Shown here one piece after another: positions 6,622-18,069 of a stretch of 43,146 nt of DNA. Below the pieces are notes generated by a model. That model was not told the origin of the DNA. It saw nothing but the letters and a program-made list of their open reading frames with translations, and ran no database searches. Source of the DNA: Methanomicrobiales archaeon (GTDB taxonomy: Archaea > Halobacteriota > Methanomicrobia > Methanomicrobiales > Methanospirillaceae). Both the position numbers and the translations under genes were made by a program. Within the stretch, counting starts at the first letter, position 1. Each line of letters begins with the position of its first letter. The stretch spans positions 1 through 43,146 of the forward strand of contig JAAYCY010000024.1 in NCBI GenBank assembly GCA_012729535.1. Direction: 5' to 3'.

Positions 6622-8775
6622 ATGGATTTAGCGGAATCTATTCTGAATGAACTGGTTACTCTGCAAAAAAAGAATGAAGAACTGGTTAATATTATTACTC
6701 GTCTCGAGCATGAGTCAGATGTAATTATCCACCAGTTTGAAGATAAAATTGCAGACTTAAATAAAAAGATCAAAAAAGTTCAGGATAATGCTGCCAAATC
6801 GGAAAAAAAGTTCGAAGCACAGATACGTGATTATAAAAAAGAGCAGGAAGGACTGTTAAAAGAGAAAGAAAAAACTGAATTAGATTTATCAGAGAAGATA
6901 ACCGGACTGGAAGGGTTGATTGAGGAGTATGAAAAAGAAATTTCAACTAAGAAAAATTCACTTCGACAATTAACCGAAGAGAAGAAAAAACTGGAATTTT
7001 TAATCAGTCAGTATTCAGATAGTTCGAAAGAAGAACTATCCCGTTTTCAGAATGAGCTGAATAAGGAGCGGGAGAATGCAAAAACAGAATATGAAAGGTT
7101 ATCTTTAGAATTCGGAAAACAGATTGATGGGTTAAATACTGAAATTACAAGAAAAGACAAGGAACTTCGTGCTCTTGCTGCTGAATTAAAAAATAAAATC
7201 GCAATCGAGCAGGATGCAATAAAGCAGGAAAAGAAAAATGAAAAGATCCTCCTTGAATTGCATGAAAAACTCGAGTCAGAACAGAATATCCGAAAAAAAA
7301 TACAGGCAGAATATCTGGCGGACTCAGAAAGGATGTCTGATACAATTCTTTTTCTTGAAGGAAAAAATACTGACCTTGAAAACACCAATGCCGGATTTCT
7401 TCAAAAAAGTAACGAATTGCAGGAGAAAATCCAGGAATTATATCTTAAAGATACAAAAAACCAGGAACTGCTATCAGACCTTAAACGATCCAATTCTGCG
7501 TTACAGGATATTATTGATAAGAACCAGGTAGAATTAACTGAAAAAGAACAGAATATCAGCACGCTCAATACCAGGGTAACAGATCTTTTATTAATCCATG
7601 ATGAGTATGAGCACAGCATTTCCTTACTTCACGATACAATTGAGCAAAATCAGGCAAATATCTCTGAGCAAGATCAGATTATCACTGACCTGAATGCTGG
7701 TCTTAATTCCCTCCGGGAGGAGATGGAATCTGAAATTTCGGTATTGATGGACGATAACGAAAAGAAAAATCTTGCCCTTATTTCCTCAGAAAAATCCGTA
7801 TCTTTTCTTAAATCCGAACTTGGGTCTGTAAAGCTGGAATATGATGAACGCATTTTATCCCTGGAAAAGACCATCCATGATTTGCAAACACAGGAAAAAT
7901 TTTTAAGAAAACAGGCAGAAGAACACGACAAAGTATTAACAAATAAAATTACCTTGCTTTCCTCCGATCTTGAAGATTCCCGGTCTGAATTAATCAATTT
8001 CACTCAACAAAAAGATGAGCGTGAACAGGAGTTCAGGAAAGAGATTGCCCACCTTCATGAGGAACTGATAAACAGGGCTGATGAATGGAAGGAGCGGCTG
8101 GAATCAAAATCGCGTGAACTTGCAGAGAGAGATCGCCACATCTCAATGATTAGTGGTAATAATGAGGCTCTTCGTTCAGAATCAGAGCGTATCAGGTCCA
8201 GGTTGTTACTTCTTGAAAAGACCATTCGTGAAGATAATGAAGAGCCTGTTCATGCATTGTATCGCCAAATCCAGGATCTTTCTGTGAAGCTGGCTAACAA
8301 GGAGTCTGAAAACTCAATTCTCTCATCAAGAATAATCCGTCTTGATACGGAGAACACGCGTCTTACTCATATTCTGTCAGAAAACTGTCCAGAACCTGGA
8401 TGGAAAGATAACTCTGATGCGAGTGGAAACAATCAGGTAACAACCCTGGTATCTGATCAGAAAATATCCCCTGAATTATCCAAATATTTGTCTAATCTCG
8501 ACGATCCTGTACAGGCAATGCAGGCTGCAGCTGATATTCTGGTACTAGGTCCCCAGATAATTGATCATCTGATTCCCCTGTTATATCGTGGGACGATAAA
8601 CCGCAGGGCCTGGATTGCAGTGCTCCTGTATGAAATGAATGATCAGCGGGCAACAAAACCACTGTCAGATCTTCTTGATTCTTCCGAAAGTGGTCTTCGT
8701 GAATTGATATGGGACACTCGTCTCCGGTTTAGGGAATGGAGGAGGACCGGGATAGTGTCTACCCTGGCCCATTAA
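6622..8775 (+). CDS. Long coiled-coil protein with C-terminal HEAT-like domain
   Basis: A 717-residue protein of unknown function. Residues about 5-560 are a nearly unbroken charged coiled coil rich in E, K, L, Q, S and D, with no membrane segment or signal peptide. A short linker follows, then about 615-705 form a helical domain (SKYLSNLDDPVQAMQAAADI, HLIPLLYRGTINRRAWIAVL, QRATKPLSDLLDSSESGLRE) resembling HEAT-repeat units. The ATG at 6622 has a GGGGGG site 5 bases upstream. It follows the chemoreceptor gene by 160 bases and converges on the filament platform gene with 17 bases between. By general SMC/tropomyosin-like character it could be a scaffold or cytoskeletal partner; no specific role can be assigned. 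Confidence 0.85.
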   Translation: MDLAESILNELVTLQKKNEELVNIITRLEHESDVIIHQFEDKIADLNKKIKKVQDNAAKSEKKFEAQIRDYKKEQEGLLKEKEKTELDLSEKITGLEGLIEEYEKEISTKKNSLRQLTEEKKKLEFLISQYSDSSKEELSRFQNELNKERENAKTEYERLSLEFGKQIDGLNTEITRKDKELRALAAELKNKIAIEQDAIKQEKKNEKILLELHEKLESEQNIRKKIQAEYLADSERMSDTILFLEGKNTDLENTNAGFLQKSNELQEKIQELYLKDTKNQELLSDLKRSNSALQDIIDKNQVELTEKEQNISTLNTRVTDLLLIHDEYEHSISLLHDTIEQNQANISEQDQIITDLNAGLNSLREEMESEISVLMDDNEKKNLALISSEKSVSFLKSELGSVKLEYDERILSLEKTIHDLQTQEKFLRKQAEEHDKVLTNKITLLSSDLEDSRSELINFTQQKDEREQEFRKEIAHLHEELINRADEWKERLESKSRELAERDRHISMISGNNEALRSESERIRSRLLLLEKTIREDNEEPVHALYRQIQDLSVKLANKESENSILSSRIIRLDTENTRLTHILSENCPEPGWKDNSDASGNNQVTTLVSDQKISPELSKYLSNLDDPVQAMQAAADILVLGPQIIDHLIPLLYRGTINRRAWIAVLLYEMNDQRATKPLSDLLDSSESGLRELIWDTRLRFREWRRTGIVSTLAH

Positions 8776-8792: not shown

Positions 8793-10718
8793 TTAAAACA
8801 TGAAATTAAAGGCAATAAGTGCACCGATAATAAGGACGCAACTATGCTTTACCCCTGCCTTTATTGAAGATTCGCCCATAAGTCCTGCCATCAGGCCTGA
8901 ACAGAGTCCCTGAATCAGGCAGATATGATACAATAACCGGTCCATTGTGATTAAAGATGTTGATCCCAGGTTTGCCAGTGGACCTGCCATTGAAAGCCCT
9001 TCTTTACTCTGGGCTGCAAGAACAGTGAGGAACTGGGTATTGATTACTCCGACTACGAAAATAAAGACGAAAAAGGAGAGGTAGACGATAGCTGTATAAA
9101 TAAACATCTCAGAAAACCTGTCACGACGCAGGTTTTCTGACATTCGTGCATCAGTTGCGGCAATCCTTAATAACGATGAAATTGAACTGCTCATAGTAGC
9201 AGCCCGGGTAATCAGGGTTACCGTTCGTGCAATAAGTGCTGTCCTGACCCTGTGCTCAAACCGTATCAATGCATCAGAAAAGTTGGCTCCCCATTCAATG
9301 TCACGGTGAATGCGGTTGATTTCATACCCCAGTATTCCCATATTTGCCCGTGCAATTACTGCAATAGATTGAGTAAGGGTAATTCCCACTTCATTGATCC
9401 CAGCCATTCTGTCAAGGAAGTCAGGGATCATTGCTTCAAGGGAACGTATCTTCTGGTTCCAGCGGGTATAAAAGATTGCAAACGGAATAAGCGCAATAAG
9501 GAGGGCAATCATGAGTTGGTCATCAATATAATTGATATTGTCCTCAAAAGTCCCTGGAGGGATAGTCATGAAAATATATATTGCGTAAATCAGGGCAATT
9601 GGCACCGTTACGTAAAAGGATAATTCAGGATGCTGGACAAATCCCTGAATCGGGTTTGCCAGCCACCGTTTTAATGGTTTAATCCGGTCAAACTTTGCAA
9701 TCGCGGTAAACAGGTGTTCTTCACTTCCGGCATCCCTGATTCGGACATCAGTATACTGATTAAGCCATTTGGCTTTCGTATACCTGACAATATTCTCATC
9801 TTTTATTGAGATCGTATCAATCATCAGAATAAATATCGTGGCTCCGATAGGGAGAACCAGGTATCCTATTAATGATAATTCCAGAATCGCTGAAGATCCC
9901 ATCATTCCCATGACTACTAAGATAACTATGAGAAACAGTGGTCCGGCTATAAATATCGTAACATATATTTCTGCAACCAGACCCAGGAACTGAAGGAATT
10001 GTTTCTGCTCAAATTTCGCTTCCTCCTGAAGAATAAAAACCCGATCCTGCAGGAATTGTGCCAGGTTACCCCCACTTTCCACGGTGGAAATCAAATCCTG
10101 TAAAAAATCACGAAGTTTTCTACTTGGTGTAGTCTCAGCTACATTCTTCAGGGCATTTATAATGTCATACCCAAAAAAATCCGCATCTCTGACTGCCTGC
10201 CTGAATTCATAGGAAATTTCTCCATATATTGCAGACATTTCTGAAATTGACCTGAGAATGGTGATTATTTCTGCTCCACCCTTTCTCATTGCATACATGT
10301 ATGAAACTGCATTGGGTAGTCCGATAGTTATCTTGGTTTCTCGTGTTTTCTTCGACAAAGCAGGAATATTTGTATAGATCACGTAGCAAAGAACACTCCC
10401 GGTAATAAACATGAAGATACCGAGCAGAACCTCGACTATGATGATAATTGGAAGTCCGCTGGTATCCGGGTCAATTGAGAGGTTCAGTACATTGTATAGT
10501 TCAGGTTTGAGACCCAGGTCTAAAGAAAAAAGAGCGAACCCTGTAATAAAACCGATGATTGCACAAAATATTCCCACACCGATTGAAGCAAGAATAGCAG
10601 TATTTAAAAATTGTTCCAAGGTTAGGCCTGACCTGATACCCATGAGGTTATTATGAAGATCATGGTATTTTTCCGGATTCCTAAAAACCATCCAGTTGAC
10701 AATTTTTCCGGCGATCAT
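8793..10718 (-). CDS. ArlJ/PilC-like type IV filament assembly membrane protein
   Basis: A 641-residue polytopic membrane protein that forms the inner platform on which an ArlI/PilB-type ATPase acts when assembling archaella or archaeal type IV pili. Two GspF/T2SSF modules are recognisable: one at about 115-310 (VSYMYAMRKGGAEIITILRS, TVESGGNLAQFLQDR) and one at about 430-640 (MIPDFLDRMAGINEVGITLT, IEWGANFSDALIRFEHRV), with about nine membrane segments overall. It is longer than a typical ArlJ (about 550). The ATG overlaps the stop of the upstream ATPase gene by 4 bases, so the two were coupled. With the ATPase split by an IS, translation of this gene may also be affected. Archaellum versus pilus cannot be decided here, because no other arl genes or pilins are in the window. 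Confidence 0.88.
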   Translation of the reverse strand: MIAGKIVNWMVFRNPEKYHDLHNNLMGIRSGLTLEQFLNTAILASIGVGIFCAIIGFITGFALFSLDLGLKPELYNVLNLSIDPDTSGLPIIIIVEVLLGIFMFITGSVLCYVIYTNIPALSKKTRETKITIGLPNAVSYMYAMRKGGAEIITILRSISEMSAIYGEISYEFRQAVRDADFFGYDIINALKNVAETTPSRKLRDFLQDLISTVESGGNLAQFLQDRVFILQEEAKFEQKQFLQFLGLVAEIYVTIFIAGPLFLIVILVVMGMMGSSAILELSLIGYLVLPIGATIFILMIDTISIKDENIVRYTKAKWLNQYTDVRIRDAGSEEHLFTAIAKFDRIKPLKRWLANPIQGFVQHPELSFYVTVPIALIYAIYIFMTIPPGTFEDNINYIDDQLMIALLIALIPFAIFYTRWNQKIRSLEAMIPDFLDRMAGINEVGITLTQSIAVIARANMGILGYEINRIHRDIEWGANFSDALIRFEHRVRTALIARTVTLITRAATMSSSISSLLRIAATDARMSENLRRDRFSEMFIYTAIVYLSFFVFIFVVGVINTQFLTVLAAQSKEGLSMAGPLANLGSTSLITMDRLLYHICLIQGLCSGLMAGLMGESSIKAGVKHSCVLIIGALIAFNFMF

Positions 10719-12121
10719 GCTACAATAACAGATAAATCATCGAGATTCTCTATAACATTATTTTTATCAATGTAATAAGCCTGGATTATTTTTGTGAAAC
10801 TGACATAATCCCTGATGTTTTGTTCTCTGACAGATGATAATACCCTTTTTCTCCTTTCCATCTCATCAAGCAGTTTATCGGGCCCCCAACCATGGAATGC
10901 TGCAATCTCGCTCAGCACCTGTGACCTGCCGGTATAACTAAACTCATCGGTCACGGGATTATATTCAAACACGGTGTTTACCATGATATTTCCTGTTGCT
11001 GGATCTATTCCGGCTATTTCAACAATTTCATCGCATCGCCTGACACGATCCGGTCCAATCTGGATCTGCTTTTGAATGCTCATGATATTAAGGGCCTGGA
11101 GCATGTTTCGTGGAACATTTAGTGGTTCGTTTTCAAGCCGGTGAATTGCTGCATCAACACTCCCTGCATGCATGGTTGAGAATGTGGTATGTCCGGTGTT
11201 CATTGCCTGGAATAATGTCTGTGCTTCATGTCCACGGACTTCACCGACCAGGATATATTCAGGTCTCTGTCTCATAGCAGCTTTGAGGAGCATGAACATG
11301 TCAACCTGGGTGCCTCCACCTTCAGCAACAATTTCTCTGGTGACACTTGCAATCCAGTTATCATGAAACAGAGTAACTTCCCTGGTATCTTCTATGGAGA
11401 TTACTTTTGCAAGTGGGGGAATAAACAGGGACACGGCATTCAGGGATGTGGTTTTACCTGATGCCGTCCCACCAATAAACACCAGGCTTTTATTGTTTTC
11501 TATCGATAGCCAGAAATATGCCAGCATATCTGCATTAAATGTATGAAGTTCCATCAGGTCAACCGGGGTAAAAGGTGTCTCCCTGAATTTTCGTATGGTA
11601 AATGAAGTTCCCCGTGAGGTTACTTCGGTTCCAAACATAAGCTGCAGACGCGAACCATCAGGCATGGTTGCATCGACAATCGGGTTTGCAGATGAGATAT
11701 GTTTTCCTGATCGCTGGGCAAGAGTGATGGCAAGGGATATAAGTGAATTACTATCAAAAGAGATATTTGTCCTTATATTCTGTTCCTTTCGGTGAAAGAG
11801 AAATATGGGGACATTATTTCCGTCACACGAGATATCTTCGATGAGCGGATCAATCATTAAAGCGTTGATCCTGCCCCAGCCCAGGTAATTGCGAATAAGG
11901 TAATAATCAATCTTAAAGAGCGACTTCTTCTCTATATTGATACCGTAGTAATCAATGAGTTCAGACACCTTGGAAATAAGAAGTTTCTTCCTTTCAATGC
12001 CAAGTTCTTCATCGGTGAGGATAAGCACATCACGCAAATCCTCATGAATCCGTTCAAGTAGTTCATATTCAAACGGAGATAATTCTGGTTCGAAAAGGAG
12101 GTATTCTTTTAATTTATTTTT
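10715..12121 (-). pseudogene. ArlI/PilB-like filament ATPase, 3' part (split by IS)
   Basis: The C-terminal 468 codons of a type IV filament assembly ATPase interrupted by an insertion sequence. It contains the N-terminal-to-core junction EYLLFEPELSPFEYELLERI, Walker A GGTASGKTT (about 11450-11475), the Asp-box and Walker B region ILVGEVRGHEAQTLF, and the His-box TMHAGS, so the catalytic core is intact. No ATG remains in frame at the fragment's 5' end; the first possible start is a TTG at 12037 without a clear ribosome binding site. Joining codon AAA at 12121 to GTT at 13976 restores one frame of 644 codons. The missing part (13967-14503) is on the far side of the IS. Whether this fragment is translated is unknown. 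Confidence 0.9.
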
Positions 12122-12123
12122 AA
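12118..12123. repeat. Target-site duplication, left copy
   Basis: TTTTAA next to the left end of the insertion sequence; the identical hexamer is at 13972-13977 on the other side. Deleting one copy plus the element restores the ATPase reading frame. Confidence 0.85.
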
Positions 12124-12150
12124 CCTGAACTACGGAGTTTTGTACACTAC
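12124..12150. repeat. IS left terminal inverted repeat
   Basis: Reads inward on the plus strand as CCTGA-ACTAC-GGAG-TTTT-GTACACTAC. It pairs with the 28-base right end (13944-13971) at CCTGA, GGAG and GTACACTAC, with one length difference. The transposase stop codon (12147-12149) lies within this repeat. Confidence 0.85.
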
Positions 12151-13838
12151 CCCACTGAAATCCTGCGCCCGGCGAACAAATCGGTCATACCTAATGCCAC
12201 TACTTGCTTTTTCAGATCAGTTGTTACATTCACATAGAATATTTCACTCTCTTTGCCCAAATCAACCTCTAATTTCTCTACCCTAGCTAATTTTCTGAGG
12301 AATGCAGACTCTGATAGTGTCACATCTTTAGATTCTGATGAATTAATCATCCAGCGAAGAGCTGAAACCAGTCGATATGCCAGAGTACAAACAAAAATAA
12401 TGGCCCTAACTCTTGATTCTAATCTATGGCGGATTGGCTTGAGATCCTCTTCAGTCTTAATCGTCCTGAATGCCTTCTCAATGAAATCTTTTTCAAGATA
12501 CATTTTGACAACCTCCTGAGCTGAATAAGAACAATCAGATGAATACAACAGAAATTTTCCATCCATGGATTTCGCTTCATCAACCATTTTTTCATTGATT
12601 GACCATGAGAAATCCACAATTTTCTCGTCTTCAGGGTATTCAATAATAAAGAATCGTTTCCACCCATTCAAGATTGTTTTCACTGCCAATTTTAAATTTT
12701 GTTGTGAATTGAAACGTAAATCTGATTTCAATTGGGATAATTCCTGCGATATCACATAAATCGCTTTATTTCTTCGGATGAGAGATTTCGTAGCTTTCGT
12801 CACATTCCTGTATACGACTGCTTCTCGCATTTGTCCATACAATTCAGCCTGAATTTTACCTGCATATAATTCTCCGGTATTTTTGCATGGAACCATAAAA
12901 TCAGGATTCTCCGGAATCTCTGTAGACATTATGATCTTTTTTGCTTCATTAGATATTTTTGGAACTCCGCAAATTATCTTCCAACCCATATTTTCAAGAG
13001 CATTTACCGTCTTGTTTGAACTGTTCCCCCGGTCCCAAATAATTGTACCATTCTGAATTGAAAAGTCAGATAAACGAGGAATAACATGCTGCATTGTTGT
13101 CATTGACGTATGATTTCCGGGATGAATCATATGAGCCAGAGGTTGTTTATCATATTTTGAGACTAAAAGAGAGAGATTAAACTGCTGTTGTCTCCAGTTC
13201 TCAGCATTATGTCCTTTTTCTGCAATAGGGCATGTATTCCCATACGTGATCATTGAGGTCATATCATAGGCCAAAAATTCACTTTCATCTTTTGGCAACG
13301 GGTTTTGATTACGCCAAATTGCATAAAGAGATTCATCAATCGCTTTCGTATTATCCACAATTCTACCTGATGCTGGATCTTCGCAGCAAATACAGTCAAG
13401 AGCAGCAAAAAAAGCGTCCCTGTCAACCCCTTTGGGGGATAATTTTGAGAGTTCCGGGAGTGATGTCCCGTCTATCCAGTCTTCAAGTTGAGAGGCACTT
13501 TCCGGATCCAATACCCGATTTATTGCCCATAGCGTTAGCAGTTTTCCAGGACTATTTGCTTTTCTTCTTCCTTTAAGGCCACAAATTCGATCAATAGTCT
13601 CGACCATGTGCATTTGGCTCGCAATTGACCACAAAACAGTTACATCACCTGCTCGAACGGAGCGGTCAGGGGGCTTCCATGCCATCACGGTTTTTTTGGG
13701 TAAAGGGACTTTTTCCTGATCACTCTCTACACCTAGATATCGAACGAATTCACTTCGAACCTTCTTCCCATCTCTTACGCTCCGGTATTCGCTCAGGTAA
13801 ACCTTGTTCCCTTTTTTCATCCGTCGAATCCACGTCAT
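12147..13838 (-). CDS. IS1634-family DDE transposase
   Basis: A 563-residue transposase that cuts and joins the ends of the surrounding insertion sequence. The N terminus (KGNKVYLSEYRSVRDGKKVR, then VRYLGV) and the LAYDMTSM, IWDRGNSS and FIEKAFRTIKTEEDLKPIRH motifs are typical of IS1634/IS4-like DDE enzymes. From these motifs the likely catalytic triad is D192, D269 and E454. Length is normal for the family and the frame is intact, so the enzyme is probably active. The ATG at 13838 lies one base from a palindrome that repeats the terminal motif of the element (13840-13860), and there is no obvious ribosome binding site, so the message may have a very short leader. Confidence 0.93.
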   Translation of the reverse strand: MTWIRRMKKGNKVYLSEYRSVRDGKKVRSEFVRYLGVESDQEKVPLPKKTVMAWKPPDRSVRAGDVTVLWSIASQMHMVETIDRICGLKGRRKANSPGKLLTLWAINRVLDPESASQLEDWIDGTSLPELSKLSPKGVDRDAFFAALDCICCEDPASGRIVDNTKAIDESLYAIWRNQNPLPKDESEFLAYDMTSMITYGNTCPIAEKGHNAENWRQQQFNLSLLVSKYDKQPLAHMIHPGNHTSMTTMQHVIPRLSDFSIQNGTIIWDRGNSSNKTVNALENMGWKIICGVPKISNEAKKIIMSTEIPENPDFMVPCKNTGELYAGKIQAELYGQMREAVVYRNVTKATKSLIRRNKAIYVISQELSQLKSDLRFNSQQNLKLAVKTILNGWKRFFIIEYPEDEKIVDFSWSINEKMVDEAKSMDGKFLLYSSDCSYSAQEVVKMYLEKDFIEKAFRTIKTEEDLKPIRHRLESRVRAIIFVCTLAYRLVSALRWMINSSESKDVTLSESAFLRKLARVEKLEVDLGKESEIFYVNVTTDLKKQVVALGMTDLFAGRRISVG

Positions 13839-13839
13839 T

Positions 13840-13860
13840 GTAGTGTATAATTAACACTAC
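13840..13860. promoter_or_regulatory. Palindrome at the transposase start, possible operator
   Basis: A 21-base inverted repeat with perfect 7-base arms GTAGTGT and ACACTAC around a 7-base AT spacer, one base upstream of the transposase ATG. The arms are the same motif found at the inner edge of both terminal repeats (12144-12150 and 13944-13951). An AT-rich TATA-like stretch lies at about 13865-13880, so the palindrome would overlap the initiation region. Binding of transposase here to repress its own gene is an inference. Confidence 0.5.
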
Positions 13861-13943
13861 AAGTAGATAAAATTTTGCATCGATGAAAGATTTTTTTTGA
13901 AAAAGAGAGCCAAATCAGAGAGTTCAAAAAATGAGAATCGTTA

Positions 13944-13971
13944 GTAGTGTACCCTATCTCCTTTACTCAGG
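13944..13971. repeat. IS right terminal inverted repeat
   Basis: Reads inward on the minus strand as CCTGA-GTAAA-GGAG-ATAGG-GTACACTAC. It matches the left end (12124-12150) at the three conserved blocks. Confidence 0.85.
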
Positions 13972-14503
13972 TTTTAACATTCAGAGCAATAACTATTTTT
14001 GCAAGACCCGGGTCCACCCAGTATTCCTGAATGGATTCAAATGGGTAAGAGAGGTGAATATCAAGCAGGCTGCCATGTTTTTCAAAATTGTATTCTTCAT
14101 ATCCTTTTTTATGTGACAGGTTAAGCCTTCGAAGTAGTTTTCTCTCATATCCCGGATCGACACTTTCCTTTTCAGTTTTGAATGTCTTTGCAAAATCATC
14201 TTCTCCTGCTGTAATTTCTTCCTCCCGTTTTAAGACTGGCAGTTTTATCCGGGTTATTGATGATTCTGTTTCAGGTTTTTTCTTTTTATCCCTCGTAATG
14301 CCTTCTTTTTCTTGTTTATTTTTTTGGACTTTTTTTGTTGTCAGGGGCAGTAATTCAGGTAATATTTTATTTTTCCGTTTCGTTTCCTGAATTTGAGATT
14401 TTTCCCTTTTTCTACCTGCCAAAAAAGCAGGGACTTTTATTCGAATAGATCGGGGTTTTTTAATTTTACCCGCAGGATCACCGGTTATTTCAGAATTCCC
14501 CAT
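13967..14503 (-). pseudogene. ArlI/PilB-like filament ATPase, 5' part (split by IS)
   Basis: The N-terminal 176 native codons of the split filament ATPase, followed by two codons and a TGA that run into the end of the insertion sequence. Residues 1 to about 110 are very basic and low in complexity (many K, E, R, T, S, P), a likely disordered extension not usual in ArlI. Residues about 130-176 (HLSYPFESIQEYWVDPGLAK, then IVIALNV) match the start of the conserved N-terminal domain of ArlI/PilB ATPases. The start is set at ATG 14503 because GGTGGT lies 6 bases upstream; a TTG at 14521 in the same frame lies upstream of that site. The catalytic core is in the fragment at 10715-12121. Confidence 0.85.
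13972..13977. repeat. Target-site duplication, right copy
   Basis: TTTTAA next to the right end of the insertion sequence, identical to 12118-12123. Confidence 0.85.
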
Positions 14504-17427: not shown

Positions 17428-18069
17428 ATGTTGAAAGCGCTCCTGCTTGCAGATCTGCACGGAGAATACGGGATGCTCGAATCCTTTATGGAATTAGCGC
17501 CCGATGTCGTCTTCATCGCAGGGGATATCACCAATATGGGAACTGCAAAGGATGTTGAGACCTGTTTTTCCCGGATCGATATCCCGAGTTTTTCGGTTCC
17601 CGGAAATTGTGATCCAAAGGAGGTCATTGATGCACTTGAACAGAGCAGCAGTGTCAACCTTCATGGTTCGTACCTGAACCTGGGCCGGATATCTCTGGTA
17701 GGGATTGGAGGATCCAACCCCACACCATTTGGAACTCCGTTTGAACTGACAGATAAACAGATAGATGATCTGATGAAAGTCTCAATGGGACGGATGCAGA
17801 AGAGTACTCATAATGTCCTCATCAGTCATGCGCCTCCTCAGGGTTATCTGGATGAAATCGGTGGTAACCATGTAGGCAGTGCCAGCATTCGTAAGTATGT
17901 GGATCAGTTTGATCTCGTCTGCTGTGCCCATGTTCATGAACAGCGTGGAATTGTTGAGGAGAGTGGAATCAAAGTGGTAAATCCTGGTCCGGCTGCTATG
18001 GGCAACTGTGCTATGATTCACTTTGGTGAAGATGCAAAAGACATTGAGGTAAAATTACTCACTGTTTAG
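17428..18069 (+). CDS. Small calcineurin-like metallophosphoesterase
   Basis: A 213-residue enzyme with all hallmark metal-binding motifs of the calcineurin-like phosphoesterase fold: D-x-H in LLADLHGEY, GD in FIAGDITN, GNCD in VPGNCDPKE, the His of ISHAPP and HVHE in CCAHVHEQ. It is likely a phosphodiesterase or phosphatase; the substrate is not evident. The gene follows the radical SAM gene by 9 bases. Its end overlaps the convergent CYTH gene by 11 bases. Confidence 0.87.
   Translation: MLKALLLADLHGEYGMLESFMELAPDVVFIAGDITNMGTAKDVETCFSRIDIPSFSVPGNCDPKEVIDALEQSSSVNLHGSYLNLGRISLVGIGGSNPTPFGTPFELTDKQIDDLMKVSMGRMQKSTHNVLISHAPPQGYLDEIGGNHVGSASIRKYVDQFDLVCCAHVHEQRGIVEESGIKVVNPGPAAMGNCAMIHFGEDAKDIEVKLLTV

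Follow-up and report, generated by a model that had tools for sequence, protein, structure and literature searches.

An IS1634-family insertion sequence splits a predicted PilB3/GspE-like pilus ATPase gene in Methanospirillum

Insertion sequences of the IS1634 family are 1500–2000 bp long, generate target duplications of 5–6 bp in AT-rich tracts, prefer Euryarchaeota, and typically have poorly conserved ends with a leading C (De Palmenaer et al., PMC2266710). Our literature search on insertion sequences in Methanospirillum found nothing relevant. The gene described here encodes an ATPase with the same core and C-terminal domain as the archaeal GspE/PilB3-type pilus ATPases (exemplified by the A. 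fulgidus structure 2OAP and the PilB3_C domain), and it likewise has a T2SSF partner encoded alongside; it differs from them in a longer, variable N-terminal extension and, here, in being cut by an IS1634-family element. With the archaellum motor ATPase ArlI/FlaI (4IHQ, 4II7), the protein shares a superfamily and an overall architecture, but it scores below the ArlI cut-off and is encoded outside the arl cluster of a genome that has true ArlI genes elsewhere. The DNA analyzed (43,146 nucleotides; hereafter “the window”) is contig C10 of a Methanospirillum draft genome that totals 3.09 Mb in 86 contigs and is possibly metagenome-derived.

The insertion element and the split gene

The element occupies positions 12124–13971 of the window (minus strand) and is a complete IS1634-family insertion sequence of 1848 bp. 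Its imperfect terminal inverted repeats both open with CCTGA, and 12 of the first 20 bases pair. Perfect 6-bp copies of the target-site duplication, TTTTAA, flank it at 13972–13977 (N-terminal side of the ATPase gene) and 12118–12123 (C-terminal side). The transposase ORF (12147–13838, minus strand; 563 aa) has a full-length match to NF033559, the IS1634-family model (218 bits vs. a cut-off of 100; model positions 1–481 of 483), as well as to PF01609 (DDE_Tnp_1). Thus, the intactness of ends, duplication, and transposase that the initial annotation had ascribed to this element was confirmed. Both the length and the AT-rich duplication lie within the family’s ranges; with its large DDE transposase and ends opening with C, the element differs in nothing of substance from described members. 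Of its termini, CCTGAACT fits the family end consensus (C-----YT), and CCTGAGTA agrees with it at positions 1 and 7 and departs from it at position 8.

The limits of the element could be fixed independently, because an 1848-bp copy in M. stamsii aligns with it over exactly positions 1–1848 at 85% DNA identity; the present element is one more copy of this kind. In M. stamsii, this copy occupies another locus and has no matching duplication beside it. With the ends so fixed, we estimate that six AT-rich bases would match by chance in about 1 of 1000 cases. Within the assembly, the only full copy is the one that splits the ATPase gene, with no sister copy against which it could be dated directly. 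Copies are also present in six relatives within the order (73–89% protein identity). Contigs C46 and C66 of the same genome hold partial, diverged, and decayed remnants of related IS1634 elements. A related element in another genome (G133; L033, 1009–2859) is bordered on either side by TTAGTAA; this 7-bp duplication exceeds the family’s usual 5–6 bp by one base.

The interrupted gene encodes a T2SSE-family ATPase of 644 codons and is split after Val176. When the element and one copy of the duplication are removed (12124–13977), the minus strand has a single frame, free of internal stops, between the ATG at 14503 and the stop codon at 10715; the predicted join reads ...IALNV-KNKLKEYLLFEPEL.... 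To the base, this is the 644-residue frame and junction that had been proposed before our comparisons. As the sequence stands, an N-terminal fragment of 178 aa (13967–14503, minus strand; 177 native residues) begins at the ATG at 14503, and its frame stops within the element’s first five bases. The C-terminal fragment (10715–12123, minus strand) contains the whole T2SSE core and the PilB3_C match; it is open over more than 440 residues, is co-oriented with the transposase, and has its first possible in-frame start past the element at a TTG (12037). The cut corresponds to residue 49/50 of A. fulgidus 2OAP, presumably within the N-terminal domain. The partner gene (8793–10718, minus strand), which encodes an ArlJ/TadC/PilC3-like membrane protein of 641 aa, is intact; its start and the stop of the ATPase gene overlap in an ATGA.

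Were the two fragments ever one gene? All 10 congeneric orthologues compared (638–643 aa) and all 8 from the wider order are single uninterrupted frames, and we therefore rejected two separate ancestral genes; none of these relatives has the gene in two parts. Residues at the join, ...NNLKSRLTEYLLFEPEL in M. stamsii (L005) and ...HNVRSKLREYLLFEPEL in a second orthologue (L006), match the predicted junction. In both congeners whose gene order was compared, M. stamsii and G003 (3.54 Mb), the order around the ATPase is that of the window: a KaiC-sized pair, the ATPase, the partner gene, a protein of 686–727 aa, and a chemoreceptor-sized gene. Among the good genomes of the order, 82 of 109 have an ATPase orthologue at an E value of 1e-150 or better, indicating that the gene is common but dispensable. 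Recurrent disruption was considered and rejected: across 150 genomes surveyed in the order, 101 of them bearing an orthologue, the only other break reported was an in-frame TAG (G129).

Identity of the interrupted ATPase

The initial annotation had left it open whether the ATPase served an archaellum or a pilus. The evidence favors the latter. The protein’s domain matches are to T2SSE (115.3 bits; Pfam cut-off, 24.9) and PilB3_C (31.4 bits; cut-off, 27), and the gene is coupled to that of the T2SSF membrane partner. Among solved structures, A. fulgidus 2OAP comes closest to it, at 452 bits vs. 276 bits for Sulfolobus FlaI. An ArlI call calls for at least 550 bits against NF058587; the C-terminal half scores 395.5 bits, and two intact orthologues score 391.3 and 390.5 bits. 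Two other genes of the same genome do exceed this cut-off, one on contig C85 (707 bits), adjoining ArlH, and one on contig C29 (705 bits), adjoining ArlJ. The split gene is not in an arl cluster: its neighbors are KaiC-domain genes that are not called ArlH and the ArlJ-like protein, which reaches only 77 bits against a cut-off of 550. The sub-cut-off scores, together with the true ArlI genes elsewhere, rule out the archaellum ATPase as the target of the insertion. From sequence comparison, we conclude that the target is a PilB3/GspE-like, non-archaellum pilus ATPase by predicted function.

The genome contains no second intact copy of the split gene; its three other ATPases of this kind are paralogues with 39–51% identity. 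One of them, on contig C31, has PilB3_N and PilB3_C matches and two adjoining T2SSF genes, and looks like part of a further intact pilus system. The contigs with the archaellum motor sets (ArlH-ArlI on C85, L052; ArlI-ArlJ on C29, L053) are each about 3.6 kb long, and the two different sets share 80% DNA identity across 2324 bp. This pair is either a real duplication or a sign of a second Methanospirillum in the bin.

Age of the insertion

A scan of residues 177–644 revealed no stop, no frameshift, and no change at any of the 175 positions where the other 18 orthologues all agree, in keeping with the earlier observation that the gene bears no further lesion. If the fragment has been unconstrained, the roughly 390 non-synonymous sites without a hit would limit neutral drift since the insertion to about 0.008 substitutions per site at most (3/390, 95%). 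Relative to M. stamsii, the transposase has a dS of 0.77, while the ATPase reaches 1.99 and the partner gene 3.0; dS at such levels is close to saturation, and we used only the ranking. Because the transposase value lies below those of the ATPase and its partner, the element’s lineage seems to circulate within Methanospirillum and to have moved between species after their split. The lack of decay and the lower transposase dS support a recent insertion, as had been surmised from the intact ends, duplication, and transposase. Relaxed selection on the C-terminal part was sought as well, and no clear excess emerged: its dN/dS to relatives is 0.03, vs. about 0.02 among the relatives themselves, and 6 genus-invariant positions are changed in it, vs. 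0–5 in the others.

Consequences and alternative explanations

We consider it very probable that a recent IS1634 insertion into a PilB3/GspE-like pilus ATPase gene has inactivated one pilus system; this is ordinary insertional inactivation. A single IS1634-family transposon inserted into the ATPase gene and duplicated 6 bp of its target. In the sequence of events that we propose, the insertion would have severed the N-terminal domain at the equivalent of 2OAP residue 49/50 and left the catalytic half with poor restart codons only. Translation of the downstream membrane protein would probably be lowered too, as its start overlaps the ATPase stop. This one type IV pilus system would be inactivated and archaella would be kept; the latter should be unaffected, since ArlH, ArlI, and ArlJ are encoded elsewhere. 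The earlier proposal that the insertion abolishes an archaellum or pilus system is thus likely to hold for one pilus system but not for the archaellum, which has two ArlI genes of its own, and the catalytic half remains an open frame. Loss of ATPase function is likely, although a truncated catalytic fragment could still be made. The assembly is a draft in 86 contigs, and some members of the population could lack the element.

Here, a pilus ATPase that is common but has received little study has been cleanly mutated by a natural insertion, in a genus, Methanospirillum, whose need for genetic tools was still being voiced in 2019 (PMC6469973). If the strain were cultured, it could reveal which surface filament this pilus system makes. 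If such ATPases were labeled FlaI/ArlI by an automatic pipeline, a loss of motility would be predicted here in error.

Might the C-terminal half nevertheless work as a truncated ATPase, with transposase transcription running into it, translation restarting at the TTG at 12037 or a GTG at 12028, and pili still being assembled? Its whole T2SSE core shows no decay, it is co-oriented with the transposase, and its open frame extends back to 12184. However, no in-frame ATG occurs among the codons inspected between 12184 and 11900, a GAGG lies only about 2 bases ahead of the TTG, and the part that is lost includes the beginning of the N-terminal domain, where a YW motif is conserved throughout the order. 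The absence of decay is equally well explained by recency, and we regard a working truncated form as improbable.

We ascribe still less weight to the idea, raised in the initial annotation, of an on/off switch by excision; in such a switch, the element would leave precisely and a fraction of natural Methanospirillum populations would regain the ATPase. With its transposase intact and its 6-bp duplication perfect, the element could in principle permit such restoration, but every fresh IS insertion has these features, and nothing beyond them points to a switch. In general, DDE elements seldom excise precisely. At this site, every other orthologue surveyed is unbroken, and M. stamsii carries the closest copy of the element elsewhere, with no matching duplication; the switch is thus unsupported. 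Least probable of all is an assembly chimera in which an IS contig was joined to a truly intact gene. The draft state of the assembly, with its 86 contigs and possible metagenomic origin, speaks for such an error, but a chimera would not be expected to show exact element ends or a perfect target duplication, and the element’s single-copy status in the assembly makes a repeat-driven misjoin unlikely. Insertional inactivation of the pilus ATPase gene remains our preferred reading.

Two other genes of the window deserve mention. Convergent with the pilus genes is a fast-evolving gene (6622–8775) for a 717-aa protein without a Pfam match; it is 56% identical to its M. stamsii counterpart, vs. 92% for the neighboring partner gene, and G003 and M. 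stamsii each have an ORF of similar size at the corresponding position. A metallophosphoesterase gene (17428–18069) has a dS of 0.46 and a third-position identity of 77% to M. stamsii, while the dS values of its neighbors exceed 1, a pattern as if this gene had recently been exchanged between species.
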